NCBI GenBank assembly: GCA_951813575.1
Contig: OX638375.1
Span: 1,403,001-1,467,000 of the forward strand
DNA length: 64,000 nucleotides
Direction: 5' to 3'
Origin: Candidatus Binatia bacterium
GTDB taxonomy: Bacteria; Desulfobacterota; Binatia; UBA9968; JAJDTQ01
Made by a program: the position numbers and the translations under genes. Of the stretch, positions 1,769-7,711 are shown piece by piece; within the stretch, counting starts at the first letter, position 1, and the number at the start of each line of letters is the position of its first letter. The notes below the pieces were generated by a model, which had not been told where the DNA came from, did not search any database, and was given only the letters and a program-made list of their open reading frames with translations.

Positions 1769-4700
1769 ATGGCCCTGAACCCCGTCGCCTATACCGAGAA
1801 TGTGGTCCGGAGCTTCCTCCGCTACCAGCTTACCGCGTATCCCTTCGCCGACCCGGGACTGTACGCGCAGATGCGAGAACTCCTTTCGCTGGATGAAACG
1901 CGTCACTCACCGCTCCTGAAGGGGCCTTACGTAAGCCTGTCGCGGCCGTTCCGGGAAGGGGCGGCCGTGGATGCGCTGGTTGCCGAAGGGCTACTCCATC
2001 CGCATCTGCGGGAGCGTATTCCCAAGGACATCACCCACCTCTACAGCCACCAAGAGCACGCGGTCCGCGTCATCACCGAAGGTCGTACAACGCTAGTGTC
2101 GACGGGCACGGGCTCCGGCAAGACCGAGTGTTTTCTCTACCCCATCGTCAGTCGGTGCCTTCGCCTCAGGGACGAAGGCGCACCTTCCGGCATAAGCGCC
2201 GTGATCGTCTATCCGATGAACGCACTGGCGGAAGATCAGCTCAACCGCCTGCGCGGCCTCCTGGCCGGCACGGGGATACCGTTCGGGATTTACGTCGGGA
2301 AGACGCCGGAACATGAGGCGGAGGTGGCGGGCGTTCGGTTGCGCCCGGGATCATCCCGGGCGGACTACGAAGCCCGGCTCGAACAGGCGCGGCGCGCGAG
2401 TAGCGGCGAGACGGTCTACCCGGCGGAAGAGGTGTGCTCGCGTGAGATGATGCGCACGGCGGGCAGACAGCCGCGGATCCTCCTGACCAACGTGAAGCAA
2501 CTCGAACTGCTTCTGACACGCCAGCAGGACGTAGCACTGTTCGCCGATGCACGGCTGGACTTTCTCGTGTTCGACGAAGCGCACACCTTCACCGGCGCCA
2601 TGGGTGCGGAAACCGCGTGCCTGATCCGCCGGCTGCGGGCGTTCTGCAATGTCGATTCAGGGCACACCACCTGTGTCGCCACGTCCGCGACCATCGTTGA
2701 CCGCGACAATCCGGAGACCGCGCGCAACTTCGCGGCGCGGATGTTCGGAGTCGCCCGCGACGCGGTGACCACTGTGGCAGAGGATTACGAGCCCGAAGTC
2801 TGGTCGGGGCCACGCTCGATCCCGCCGCCACCAGCCGAAGACACCATCGCGATTCTGGATCGGTGCGTCCAGGCGGTAGAGGAAGAGAGTGACTCGGGCA
2901 CGGACGTGCGCGCGGTGTATCGCTCCCTCTCGGGTGAAGAGCTGGACGGACCGCACTCGGAGGACTGGCCGCTGGCGCTCCACGAAGCGTTGTCTAGCAA
3001 CGAGTTGGTTTTTCGGCTTAACGAGGAACTTACGTCGCCCAAGGCCCTGGATGAGCTGCCCGAGGGGCTCCAAAAGGAAATCGGGCGGCCGGTGACCGAA
3101 GCCGAAATCCTGGCCTGGCTTACGCTCAGTGCGGCGGCGCGCCGCGACGGCCGTCCCCTCTTGCGGCCCGTGGTCCACTGCTTCGTGCGCGGGATCGGCG
3201 GGGCGGTGGTCTCGTTCCCCGAGGACTCCGAAGGTGCCAAACTTTGGCTTGCTGCCGAGGACAAGGCTGAGTTCGAGGAGCCGCAAGAGCACGCGCATTT
3301 CGCCGTCACTACGTGTACCACCTGCGGGCAGCACTACTATGTGACGTTCCTCAAGGATTTCGAGTTTACGAAAAAGCAACCCGGCGGCGGCGAGGCGGGC
3401 GCGACCGGATCATGGTGGGACCCGTTGGACGAGGCCCACGGCGGCAGGCGCGTTGTTCTGATTGACCACCTCATCGGTAGTGACGACGATGATGACGATG
3501 CGCCACCCCACGCGCGCACCAGCCCGCTCCACTTCTGCCGGCACTGCGGCGCAGCGCACCCCCAGTCACAGGACCGTTGTCTTCACTGTGGGAAGTCCGG
3601 CACCACGACCCAACTCTTCGCTATTCGCCAAAACAAGGACCACCCAGGCTGGCTCACGAGTTGCCTTTCGTGTAAATCCGCCGGCCGAGCGTTGAGCAGC
3701 TACTACCGCGAACCCGCCCGGGCCGTGCGGGCCATCAACGTCGCGGATGTGCACGTTCTGACTCAGGACATGGTGCACCACGCGGAGCGCCAGCGGTTAC
3801 TCGTCTTCTGCGACAATCGCCAGGATGCGGCATTCCAGGCCGGATGGATGAAGGACCACGCGCGCCGCTTCCGGCTCAGAGCGTTGATGGCCGAGGGCAT
3901 CAAGGCACAACCACGCTCGGTGGGTGACCTTGCGGGCTATCTGGACGATCTGCTGGAAACGGACGAAACGTTGTCCCGAGCCCTTATTCCCGAGGTCTGG
4001 CAAGTCGCTCGCCGCGAAGGAAGCGGGGGGCGCCACGAGCAGGAACGCCGCAAGTACCTGCGCTTCCAGGTGCTTCGCGAAGTGGCCCTGTCACCCCGGC
4101 AGTCCCTGGGCCTCGAGCCCTGGGGACGCATGAAGGTCGAGTACGAAGGTCTCGACAACTATTCGCCATGGATACAAGAGCACGCGCACGAACTGGGCAT
4201 CTCGGCGGAGCACCTGCGCGAGGGCGTGGCGAGCGTCCTGGACTACCTGCGGCGCAAGCGCGCTTTGTACGACCCCGAGCACGGGATCTTCACGAAACAC
4301 TGGATGGACGGCGACCGGGAGATTCAGCAGGGCTACCTGCCGAGCTTTCTGTCTCCCAATGCCACGAAGCTCCGACGCGAACCCCAGGAAAAGACCAACC
4401 TGGTCACGCAATGGCTGAGCAGCGGCGGCGACACGACCCTGCGCCAGATAGCCAGAAAATGGGGCGTGGCATCGGACTCCATTGAGTCGTTCCTGGAAGG
4501 CCTGTTCGCATACCTGGTTGAGAGCCGACTCCTGGTGCCCGTGCGGCTCAGGGGCTCCAAGGGCCGCCCGTTACCCGGGGTAAGCGGCGTCTACCAGGTG
4601 AACGCCGACAAGCTGCGTCTGACTCCCAATCGGGGAGTCAGACGCTGCAAGAGCTGCCGGCGCACCACCACACGTGATCTCCCCTATGACCGCTGTCCGG

Positions 4701-7700
4701 CCTGGCGTTGTGACGGTTTTCTCGAATGGGTGCCGGAAAACAGCGACAACTACGACCTGCAATTACTCGACGGGGCGTACTCCATGCTGCGGCCCGAAGA
4801 GCACACCGCCATGGTCCCGAACGACGAACGGGAGCGGCTGGAGAACCTGTTCAAGGGGACGTCGGACGCGGTGAACAGCCTCGTGTGCACTCCGACCCTG
4901 GAGCTTGGAATCGACATCGGCCAGCTCGACTCCGTGCTCATGCGCAACGTCCCGCCCTTGCCCGCCAATTACTGGCAACGCGCCGGACGGGCGGGCCGAC
5001 GTCACCGTATGGCCGTGGACATCACCTACTGCCGACCTCTTTCCCACGACCGAGCCTACTTCACCGATCCGCCTAAGCTCTTGACCGGCCGGATCGATCC
5101 GCCCGCCTTCAACCTGCGCAATGACCTGATGATCGCCAAGCACGTGCATGCCACTGTCATCGCCGACCTGCACCGCTACGGCCGGGACCCAAGCCGTCCG
5201 GAAACGGAACGAAACGAAATACAGGGAATTCTGGCCCGGTGCCTCCCCAGGCGCGTGGAGCCGTACCTGTTCGACGCGGGAGAACTGCGCCAGGGACCTT
5301 TTGACTTCAGCTCGCTGCGGGATCTGGTTCTGGACAACGTCGAAGATCTGACTGCCCACGCGACGCGAGTCTTTGAGCAAGGGTGGCCGGAGTCGGACGC
5401 GGACGTCACAACACCTGCCGCACTGCGCGCTCACGTCGAGGTTTTCGCGGACAATCTGGAAGCCGTTGTCGCTCGTCTACGACGGCGCTTGACTTGGGCC
5501 ATGGACCAGATCAAGAGGTTGAACGAATTGCGTGAGCGAAAAGGTACGCTTCAGCCCGACGAAGAGGCCTTATTCCGTCGTTGCGACAGTTTCATCAAGC
5601 GGCTCAAGGGAGCCGAGAGGCGGCGCAACCAGGCGGAAGGCCACGACGACTCCAACACCTTCAACGTGCTGGCGGCGGAGGGTTTCCTGCCGGGCTACGG
5701 CCTTGAGGTCGGTACGGTGGTGGGTTGGGCGGAAATCCCCTTTTGGCGCACCGGCGCCATGGACTTCAGCCTGCCGAGGCCGCCAGCCACGGCCTTGCGC
5801 GAGTACGTTCCCGGCAACCTGATCTACGCCAACGGCCACCGTTTCGTGGCACGGCGCTTCCACCGTGAACTCGGGGAAGGACGGGAAGAAATGCCCTGCT
5901 ATGAAGTGTCGGCGGAACGGCAAGCCGTCAAACCGGCGCGTCAGGGTGCGGGGTCTTCGCTGAGCGGCCGGGTCGTCACGACCATGGAGGTTTGCGACGC
6001 CGACCTTGTCCACACCTCCCACATCTCCGACGAAGAGGACTTGCGGTTTCAACTGGCGGTGGCGGTCTACGGCCTCGAGCGCGGCCAGCACAGCGGAGGG
6101 CGCGCCTATCGTTGGGGTCCGCAGAAGCTACTGTTGCGCCAAGGGGTGCAAATGCGGCTGGTGAACGTGGGAGCGTCGGCGGCCATCAAGGGGCGGGGAG
6201 CATTCGGGTACCCGGTATGCACGGTCTGCGGCCAGAGCGTTTCGCCGCTTTCCTCCGTGCGCCAGCGCCAGGAGTTCGTCAAGTCCCACGAAGAACGGTG
6301 TCGGCGCAAGCCCGGGGACATCGGGTTTCATGCCGACGTGACCGCGGAAGCGCTCTCCCTGCCTGGGTGCGATGACGCGGAAACCGCGTACAGCGTGCTG
6401 GAAGCGCTACGCTTCGGGGCCACTCAGGTGCTGGACATGCACATGGACGACCTGCAGATACTCGTAGTCGGCCATGTGGATCGCGAGGATGTGGACGCGT
6501 TGCTGTGGGACCCTATGCCCGGAGGCTCCGGGCTTCTGGAGCGCCTGTGCGATCGTTTCGGGGAGATCGTTGAAACAGCCCGCGAAGTCGTCGCCAACTG
6601 CCCGGCCTTGTGCAGCTCTTCCTGCATCGACTGCCTCCAGACCTTCCGCAACGCCTACTACCATCGTCACCTCGACCGCGCCACGGCCCGGGAGCGGCTG
6701 GACCAGTGGGGCGTGAGTTTGACCTTCGAGCACGACATTCCGCCACTGCAACCCACCGAAAGGCCCCCTGACAACGCTGTGCCCGTGAACGATGCGGAAA
6801 CCAAGCTGCGCCATCGTCTGCTCGCCGCGGGCTTCGGTGAAGGGATCCGTAACGAGCAGATCCGGCTGGACCGCGCGCTGGGTACGACGACACCGGACGC
6901 CATCTACCGCGGGGAGGATCATGAGCCAGACGAAGGGGTCTGCATCTACCTCGACGGATTGAGCCGCCATCTCCACGGAAATCCTGCGACGGCTGAGCGG
7001 GACCGTGCAATCCGCGATTGGCTGCGCAACCATGGGTACGAAGTCATCGAGATTCCTGCCAACGAGCTTGACGACCTGGACGCCATGGTGCGTCATTTCC
7101 GCCGGTTGGCCAACTATCTCGGGATGCGTGACGTCCGCAAACGGCTGAGTGATGACCGCTCGTGGTTTGACAGCACTACCGAGCCGAGCCGGCCTGTGCT
7201 GCGGTTGGTCACCCCCACGGCGGACACGAGGTACGTCAACTGCGTGCCACTGGTTCCACTGAAGGCTGCCGCGGGCGCGTTCGGTGACCCTCAATCAGCG
7301 CTCGACGACTCGGAATGGGAATGGGTGGAGATCGATAACCGCCACCCGCTACGCTCCGGGATGTTCGTCGCGCAGGTGGTCGGGCATTCGATGGAACCCA
7401 TGATCCCGGACGCCGCGTACTGTCTGTTTACCAGTCCCGTGACCGGCACGCGCCAGGGGCGCACCGTGCTCGTCCAACTGCGAGACGAGGTCGATCCTGA
7501 GACCAGTCTCCGGTTCACTGTGAAGCGGTATCGTAGCGAGAAAACCGCCGACAAGGACGGCTGGCGACACGTCAGAATCGTGCTTGAACCGGTCAACCAC
7601 GAATACGCTCCCATCGAGTTGAAGACCGAAGACGAGGAGGCTGTGGCGGTTGTGGCCGAGTTCCTGGAGGTTGTCGGCACGGATTTACCTGCAGACCTGC

Positions 7701-7711
7701 TTCCCGAGTGA
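1769..7711 (+). CDS. Giant DUF1998 helicase fused to nuclease-like and LexA/S24 protease domains
   Basis: A 1,980-aa multidomain protein. Helicase motifs in order: Walker A GTGSGKT (about 113), DEAH box (about 268), SAT (about 306), FCDNRQDA (about 675), then ELGIDIG (about 1045) and QRAGRAGRR (about 1069). Zinc-ribbon cysteines sit near 515, 589-606 and 959-978. A DUF1998 region ends in the cysteine cluster CSSSCIDC near 1613, as in MrfA, DruE and DISARM DrmB-type proteins. Residues about 1680-1800 look like a PD-(D/E)XK/Vsr fold: TPDAIY, then YLDG, then RDWLRNHGYEVIEI. Residues about 1825-1980 form an S24 peptidase domain with Ser1874 (GHSMEP), Lys1919 (FTVKRY) and an Ala1835-Gly1836 bond in a LexA-like setting. 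AAGGA precedes the ATG. The size and DUF1998 resemble Druantia DruE. Role in phage defence is inferred. Confidence 0.85.
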   Translation: MALNPVAYTENVVRSFLRYQLTAYPFADPGLYAQMRELLSLDETRHSPLLKGPYVSLSRPFREGAAVDALVAEGLLHPHLRERIPKDITHLYSHQEHAVRVITEGRTTLVSTGTGSGKTECFLYPIVSRCLRLRDEGAPSGISAVIVYPMNALAEDQLNRLRGLLAGTGIPFGIYVGKTPEHEAEVAGVRLRPGSSRADYEARLEQARRASSGETVYPAEEVCSREMMRTAGRQPRILLTNVKQLELLLTRQQDVALFADARLDFLVFDEAHTFTGAMGAETACLIRRLRAFCNVDSGHTTCVATSATIVDRDNPETARNFAARMFGVARDAVTTVAEDYEPEVWSGPRSIPPPPAEDTIAILDRCVQAVEEESDSGTDVRAVYRSLSGEELDGPHSEDWPLALHEALSSNELVFRLNEELTSPKALDELPEGLQKEIGRPVTEAEILAWLTLSAAARRDGRPLLRPVVHCFVRGIGGAVVSFPEDSEGAKLWLAAEDKAEFEEPQEHAHFAVTTCTTCGQHYYVTFLKDFEFTKKQPGGGEAGATGSWWDPLDEAHGGRRVVLIDHLIGSDDDDDDAPPHARTSPLHFCRHCGAAHPQSQDRCLHCGKSGTTTQLFAIRQNKDHPGWLTSCLSCKSAGRALSSYYREPARAVRAINVADVHVLTQDMVHHAERQRLLVFCDNRQDAAFQAGWMKDHARRFRLRALMAEGIKAQPRSVGDLAGYLDDLLETDETLSRALIPEVWQVARREGSGGRHEQERRKYLRFQVLREVALSPRQSLGLEPWGRMKVEYEGLDNYSPWIQEHAHELGISAEHLREGVASVLDYLRRKRALYDPEHGIFTKHWMDGDREIQQGYLPSFLSPNATKLRREPQEKTNLVTQWLSSGGDTTLRQIARKWGVASDSIESFLEGLFAYLVESRLLVPVRLRGSKGRPLPGVSGVYQVNADKLRLTPNRGVRRCKSCRRTTTRDLPYDRCPAWRCDGFLEWVPENSDNYDLQLLDGAYSMLRPEEHTAMVPNDERERLENLFKGTSDAVNSLVCTPTLELGIDIGQLDSVLMRNVPPLPANYWQRAGRAGRRHRMAVDITYCRPLSHDRAYFTDPPKLLTGRIDPPAFNLRNDLMIAKHVHATVIADLHRYGRDPSRPETERNEIQGILARCLPRRVEPYLFDAGELRQGPFDFSSLRDLVLDNVEDLTAHATRVFEQGWPESDADVTTPAALRAHVEVFADNLEAVVARLRRRLTWAMDQIKRLNELRERKGTLQPDEEALFRRCDSFIKRLKGAERRRNQAEGHDDSNTFNVLAAEGFLPGYGLEVGTVVGWAEIPFWRTGAMDFSLPRPPATALREYVPGNLIYANGHRFVARRFHRELGEGREEMPCYEVSAERQAVKPARQGAGSSLSGRVVTTMEVCDADLVHTSHISDEEDLRFQLAVAVYGLERGQHSGGRAYRWGPQKLLLRQGVQMRLVNVGASAAIKGRGAFGYPVCTVCGQSVSPLSSVRQRQEFVKSHEERCRRKPGDIGFHADVTAEALSLPGCDDAETAYSVLEALRFGATQVLDMHMDDLQILVVGHVDREDVDALLWDPMPGGSGLLERLCDRFGEIVETAREVVANCPALCSSSCIDCLQTFRNAYYHRHLDRATARERLDQWGVSLTFEHDIPPLQPTERPPDNAVPVNDAETKLRHRLLAAGFGEGIRNEQIRLDRALGTTTPDAIYRGEDHEPDEGVCIYLDGLSRHLHGNPATAERDRAIRDWLRNHGYEVIEIPANELDDLDAMVRHFRRLANYLGMRDVRKRLSDDRSWFDSTTEPSRPVLRLVTPTADTRYVNCVPLVPLKAAAGAFGDPQSALDDSEWEWVEIDNRHPLRSGMFVAQVVGHSMEPMIPDAAYCLFTSPVTGTRQGRTVLVQLRDEVDPETSLRFTVKRYRSEKTADKDGWRHVRIVLEPVNHEYAPIELKTEDEEAVAVVAEFLEVVGTDLPADLLPE

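Follow-up and report, generated by a model that had tools for sequence, protein, structure and literature searches.

It has long been asked how bacteria avoid being killed by their own powerful DNA-destroying immune enzymes once their DNA is damaged, and a locus of Candidatus Binatia bacterium bears on this question. In a 64,000-nucleotide stretch of this genome (the window; G000:C1 1403001-1467000), positions 1769-7711 of the forward strand hold a single intact open reading frame of 1,980 codons with zero internal stops. The product, ArmC, is a defence helicase followed in the same chain by a nuclease and a LexA-like S24 peptidase module. What would such a module do on an immune nuclease? The gene contains the following parts.

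1769-7711, + strand: armC, YprA-like helicase with Vsr nuclease and S24 module; 1,980 amino acids (aa); PADLOC DruE3 E 3.4e-107
2045-2314, + strand: DEAD match in RecA1, aa 93-182, by Pfam; Walker A GTGSGKT at aa 113 and DEAH at aa 269 by motif scan
4808-5002, + strand: Helicase_C match in RecA2, aa 1014-1078, by Pfam; QRAGRAGR at aa 1070 by motif scan
6401-6637, + strand: MrfA Zn-binding domain (MZB, the DUF1998 core), aa 1545-1623; Pfam MZB E 1.5e-9
6785-7123, + strand: Vsr-type nuclease domain, about aa 1673-1785, by alignment and structure match; invariant E1677, D1710 and D1729
7217-7678, + strand: S24 (LexA/UmuD-like) module, about aa 1817-1970, by Pfam; LexA Z 12.9; ratio of nonsynonymous to synonymous substitution (dN/dS) 0.141
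7271-7276, + strand: predicted self-cleavage bond A1835-G1836 in LKAAAGAFG; Ala-Gly in 23 of the 23 modules with this region
7388-7390, + strand: predicted catalytic Ser, S1874 (GHSMEP), invariant
7523-7525, + strand: predicted catalytic Lys, K1919 (TVKRY), invariant

Searches of the 1,980-aa protein with Pfam returned DEAD (E 1.1e-20), Helicase_C (E 4.5e-11), MZB and, at aa 1833-1959, Peptidase_S24 (E 2.4e-5), a match that passes the gathering cut-off. The top PADLOC profile was that of Druantia DruE3. A BrxA-like helical insertion after RecA1, which is a feature of ARMADA, was looked for in a structural model of aa 300-940 (predicted local distance difference test score, pLDDT, 69), for which there was no match above Z 4.5. 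No Pfam nuclease model matched aa 1650-1800, and the nuclease was recognized from structure. When residues 1651-1980 were modelled with AlphaFold2 (pLDDT 77), the corresponding part matched I-Bth0305I (Z 10.5, 95 residues, 3.1 Å) and also Vsr 1cw0 (Z 7.9). By this model, the region of about aa 1673-1785 is a Vsr-type PD-(D/E)XK nuclease.

The S24 part of the same model matched LexA from Thermotoga (Z 12.9; 122 residues, 2.4 Å) and from E. coli (Z 12.7), the LexA match extending over the cleavage region. It also matched UmuD, lambda CI and RecA-bound LexA (Z 11.7), and a PDB sequence search with a profile of the Vsr and S24 domains gave weak matches to UmuD/LexA. Two hallmarks of S24 peptidases are present, namely a Ser-Lys dyad and an Ala-Gly bond N-terminal of the Ser. 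The alignment columns A185-G186, S224 and K269, which correspond to A1835-G1836, S1874 and K1919, are invariant in the eight loci with an S24-bearing ArmC, one of which (L009) is a contig-end fragment holding the C-terminal part only. Judged by sequence and model together, the ArmC tail is a LexA/UmuD-type S24 domain.

Because the order helicase-Vsr-S24 recurs in these eight loci, from several phyla, the fusion is not an assembly accident. A sequence-only reading of the window had described a single chain made up of a DUF1998-type defence helicase, a PD-(D/E)XK-like domain and an S24 domain. These features were confirmed, the helicase by Pfam and PADLOC and the last 300 or so residues by Pfam and structure for S24 and by structure for the nuclease; homologues with the same domain order and defence genes as neighbours, which that reading had suggested collecting, were also found, with ArmA/ArmB partners in relatives.

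The partner genes identify the system. In ARMADA (Bell et al. 2025, bioRxiv), a restriction-like defence system against phage, ArmA is BrxHII-like, ArmB is PglX-like and ArmC is YprA-like with a C-terminal Vsr domain, and type II has an additional ArmD (PMC12458937). Defence by an E. coli type II ARMADA needed all four genes, and its protection was non-abortive (PMC12458937). On sequence evidence, the 1,980-aa helicase-nuclease is the ArmC of ARMADA, since two conserved genes accompany it, one for a helicase of DrmD/BrxHII type and one for a methyltransferase of DrmMI/PglX type. The operon starts roughly 10 kb before the window, outside the view of the sequence-only reading, and has the order armA, armB, a gene of 203 aa, RelB/YafQ and armC. 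The armA gene (L015 3014-6301; L015 is G000:C1 1390001-1405000, and the window position is the L015 position minus 13000) encodes a SNF2 helicase of 1,095 aa with matches to DrmD (E 6.2e-194) and BrxHII (E 5.2e-72). ArmB, a large Eco57I-like methyltransferase, resembles adenine methyltransferases, and its intact relatives match the type IIG methyltransferase (E 0) and DrmMI (E 2e-124) profiles.

Most relatives have the same two genes upstream of armC; by profile, both partners were found in this genome and in loci L002, L005, L006, L011, L014 and L066, and partly in others. Relatives with 48-86% identity come from Binatia, Spirochaetia, Nitrospirae, Spartobacteria, Verrucomicrobia, Gemmatimonas, Thermoanaerobaculia, Aminicenantes, Betaproteobacteria, Planctomycetes, Lentisphaerae and Pseudomonadales, and one scan of viral contigs gave no relative. 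The L002 locus lies at the same chromosomal place, with approximately 80% DNA identity both within the locus and in the DNA that flanks it downstream. In the tree, ArmC falls together with helicases of E. coli and Streptomyces plasmids that adjoin an ArmD-type gene, apart from a type I-order helicase, although its exact position is unsure as some branches are long. The locus thus resembles ARMADA in its YprA-like helicase with MZB/DUF1998 and a C-terminal Vsr domain, and in the upstream position of ArmA and ArmB, which follow the type II order, but differs in the S24 domain added after Vsr, in the lack of ArmD at S24-bearing copies and in the cargo between armB and armC. Downstream of armC, ArmD (a RelE-GajB-like UvrD helicase) was found neither here nor in the S24-bearing loci; in the planctomycete loci L004 and L013, ArmD is present and S24 absent.

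The sequence-only reading had offered a subtype of Druantia as one possibility, which we now regard as very improbable. DruE of Druantia type III is a homologous YprA-like helicase, and its profile remains the best for ArmC at 3.4e-107; ARMADA helicases are known to be most similar to those of Druantia (PMC12458937). Druantia III combines a PLD-type nuclease tail with DruH (PMC12458937, PMC13192584), whereas ArmC has Vsr and S24 domains and the partners ArmA and ArmB. DruH, DruABCD and DruMFG were not among the neighbours scanned with PADLOC, which matched ArmA, ArmB or nothing, and the tree places ArmC with ARMADA type II-like helicases, its rows including no Druantia except possibly Nostoc. 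Membership in Druantia was rejected on the partner genes. DISARM class 1, with separate DrmA and DrmB and the PLD nuclease DrmC, does not fit either, as helicase and MZB form one chain here and the nuclease is of Vsr type.

ARMADA and the S24 family are already known, and the S24 tail on ArmC is apparently the new part. The helicase with Vsr is the standard ArmC layout, and the S24 fusion is absent from the ARMADA paper. The words LexA, peptidase and protease do not occur in the main text of that paper (PMC12458937). In the open-access literature we found no description of S24 on HsdR, ArmC/DUF1998 or SLFN-g3/DUF2075 helicases; priority is not thereby proven.

The S24 module extends an enzyme that is already complete, since the ArmC proteins that lack it (L014, L011 and L066/L018) end immediately before the linker. 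In the comparison of this genome with L002, dN/dS was lowest for Vsr (0.063), followed by the helicase (0.107), S24 (0.141) and the linker (0.341); these ratios are approximate because synonymous sites are partly saturated. The low value for S24, as compared to the linker before it, indicates purifying selection on the module.

RecA filaments promote self-cleavage in LexA-type S24 domains. We propose that the appended S24 module may act as a DNA-damage-responsive off-switch of ARMADA ArmC, a proposal to which we give barely less than even weight. ArmB would mark self DNA, ArmA and ArmC would engage unmarked DNA, and the Vsr domain would cut it. If the host chromosome were damaged or attacked, RecA filaments on single-stranded DNA would trigger S24 self-cleavage at A1835-G1836, and the cleaved helicase-nuclease, with the new end ...LKAAA as an ssrA/LexA-like ClpX degron, would be removed. 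The outcome would be a built-in form of the ClpXP restriction alleviation known for EcoKI HsdR. We infer the cleavage, its dependence on RecA, the degradation and the direction of the switch, off rather than on.

ArmC resembles LexA, UmuD and lambda CI in the S24 fold, the Ser-Lys dyad and the Ala-Gly cleavage bond; it differs in that its S24 domain has no helix-turn-helix, is C-terminal on a helicase-nuclease and has a longer loop ahead of the catalytic Lys. When LexA is cleaved, ClpX signals beside the cut site become exposed (PMC10584840, PMC5742171). The predicted cleavage products of the S24 proteins end in LKAAA, LQAVA, LKIAA and similar sequences, with -AA or -VA in 23 of 23. In restriction alleviation ClpXP removes HsdR, and for EcoKI HsdR no simple terminal degron was found (PMC4231737). 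The proposed likeness lies in a DNA-translocating restriction subunit that would be removed when self DNA is at risk. In contrast to EcoKI HsdR, for which no degron was identified and no S24 described (PMC4231737), ArmC would have its degron built in and exposed by self-cleavage.

The same residues could be read in the opposite direction. S24 domains dimerise in LexA, UmuD and CI, and paired S24 domains might hold ArmC as an inactive dimer until RecA filaments induced by phage set off self-cleavage and freed an active helicase-nuclease. The cleavage product would then be a complete enzyme resembling the natural S24-less ArmC of L014, L011 and L066. We nevertheless consider activation unlikely and rate the off-switch above it, because the new C-terminus, -AA or -VA throughout, resembles a signal for degradation and because a system guided by methylation, which needs no damage to be switched on, endangers its host after damage. 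A non-cleaving S24 that serves for dimerisation or as a RecA-docking scaffold, for example by bringing the nuclease to RecA-coated single-stranded DNA, would agree with the structure matches to RecA-bound LexA, CI and UmuD. It seems quite improbable, however, as the dyad and the Ala-Gly bond, unneeded in a pure scaffold, are invariant although the other modules are otherwise only approximately 35-60% identical to that of this ArmC. LexA-family domains are also capable of cleavage in trans, so that S24 might act on a phage or host regulator, but in all 23 copies with the region the module contains a cleavage bond of its own where LexA has one, leaving this version hardly credible. A damage-sensing, self-cleaving switch, which the sequence-only reading had also suggested, thus appears to be the best-supported reading of the S24 sequence and model.

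Several observations weigh against the off-switch. Ala at P2 is normal in LexA-type sites and is thus weak evidence of a degron, and S24 could be merely a dimeriser. The module is rare, being present in 10 of 395 sampled genomes of the same phylum and in 5 of 349 of a second phylum, and the close ArmC relatives L014, L011 and L066 live without it; it is therefore dispensable. In the Binatia genome armB is interrupted, and its ARMADA copy may be inactive. Finally, a search upstream of the operon with the lexA palindrome ACCAGACNNNNGTCTGGT found no SOS-type box; the sole ACCAGACNNNNGTCTGGT-like site, at window position 2787, has two mismatches, is coding and is at chance level. Since no SOS box precedes the operon, a link to damage would be post-translational. 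In favour of the switch, the genome carries its own LexA, with a perfect palindrome, ACCAGACAAAAGTCTGGT, at the start of the lexA gene (L071:2089-2106; G000:C1:3516171-3516188). This palindrome, which differs from the boxes of E. coli and B. subtilis, is probably the SOS box of the lineage.

A search of the relatives' host genomes with the Vsr and S24 profile showed that the S24 part also occurs on other large proteins, namely HsdR (HSDR_N, SWI2_SNF2 and S24), with hsdM nearby in L053 and L054. Further hosts are a second HsdR lineage (L044), ResIII helicases (L046 and L051) and Schlafen-group-3 (SLFN-g3) helicases (L045, L047-L049 and L061-L064); stand-alone or fragmentary copies were found in L052 and L050, and the search of plasmids gave one partial match (Halomonas). 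Where the host protein is large, 0-13 aa separate the module from the C-terminus. The Ala-Gly bond, the P2 Ala/Val, the Ser and the Lys are all kept in 23 of 24 modules, the 24th (L050) being one in which the cleavage region is absent from the reading frame. Most ArmC modules group in the S24 tree with those of HsdR and away from the module of the L006 ArmC (moderate support), whereas the helicase tree keeps the L006 ArmC in the same clade as other ArmC proteins. Exchange of the module between hosts is therefore likely, as far as the two trees tell.

The occurrence of one module on several immune nucleases suggests a built-in switch that would respond to DNA damage. More broadly, a portable self-cleaving S24, recruited to the C-terminal ends of restriction and defence helicases that are unrelated (ArmC, HsdR, SLFN-g3 and ResIII helicases), may be a general DNA-damage fuse, acting from RecA through cleavage and a ClpX degron to destruction; we offer this tentatively, as rather more apt to fail than to hold. 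If true, the question posed above would have a direct and genetically separable answer in an effector that carries its own self-cleaving LexA module, and the predictions could be tested by single-residue mutants in several systems. S24 self-cleavage would occur in immune effectors as well as in transcription repressors and a polymerase subunit, and the SOS signal would be coupled to immunity after translation.

Among the S24-bearing proteins, the SLFN-g3 (DUF2075) helicases of L045, L047, L048, L049, L061 and L064 are 796-829 aa long with S24 at the end, and the L045 protein had weak PADLOC matches only. The proteins at L062:6874-9123 and L063:3930-6125 are SLFN-g3-type helicases with S24 and an N-terminal stretch that is GIY-YIG-like by eye; in L063 this stretch was not called by Pfam.

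Upstream of armC, the window contains four further features.

1-241, + strand: 3' end of armB (ArmB/DrmMI-like methyltransferase); the whole gene spans approximately G000:C1 1396381 to 1403241
238-849, + strand: gene of 203 aa that overlaps the armB stop and precedes the toxin-antitoxin pair; probable cargo
1113-1430, + strand: RelB/DinJ antitoxin (Pfam RelB E 1.6e-19); cargo, not conserved
1417-1698, + strand: YafQ toxin (Pfam YafQ_toxin E 1.5e-28); cargo, not conserved

An IS3-type element upstream of the window interrupts armB, which is intact in L002. Using the intact L002 ArmB as query, tblastn aligned aa 1-1319 to L015 6381-10358 and aa 1311-1839 to L015 11673-13238. Between them lies an IS3-type transposase on the minus strand (L015 10417-11664; G000:C1 1400417-1401664; Pfam rve/HTH_21), with inverted end sequences near L015 10358 and 11690 (ggtggtcc / ggaccacc). 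The 203-aa gene had no match in Pfam, PADLOC or NCBIfam, and tblastn over the compared loci found it in this genome alone. The toxin-antitoxin genes noted in the sequence-only reading are a real pair, but were rejected as a component of the system because relatives lack them. An Rfam scan of the upstream region gave no match.

Cargo at this spot is found elsewhere. In L003 and L012, armB lies approximately 11-12 kb upstream of armC, and cargo therefore lies between them. A Schlafen gene with AlbA_2 and HATPase_c_4 is located upstream of armC at L014:7614-8996 and L010:279-1208 (Pfam, L014 copy); in L014 it is cargo between armB and armC, in the place that RelB/YafQ occupy in the window. Genes for ThiF (E1-like) proteins occur near armC in three distant loci (L003:439-1935, L012:15810-17645 and L080:14280-15694), accompanied in L003 and L080 by a JAB-type peptidase, and these ThiF/JAB genes are possibly a recurrent ubiquitin-like defence cargo.

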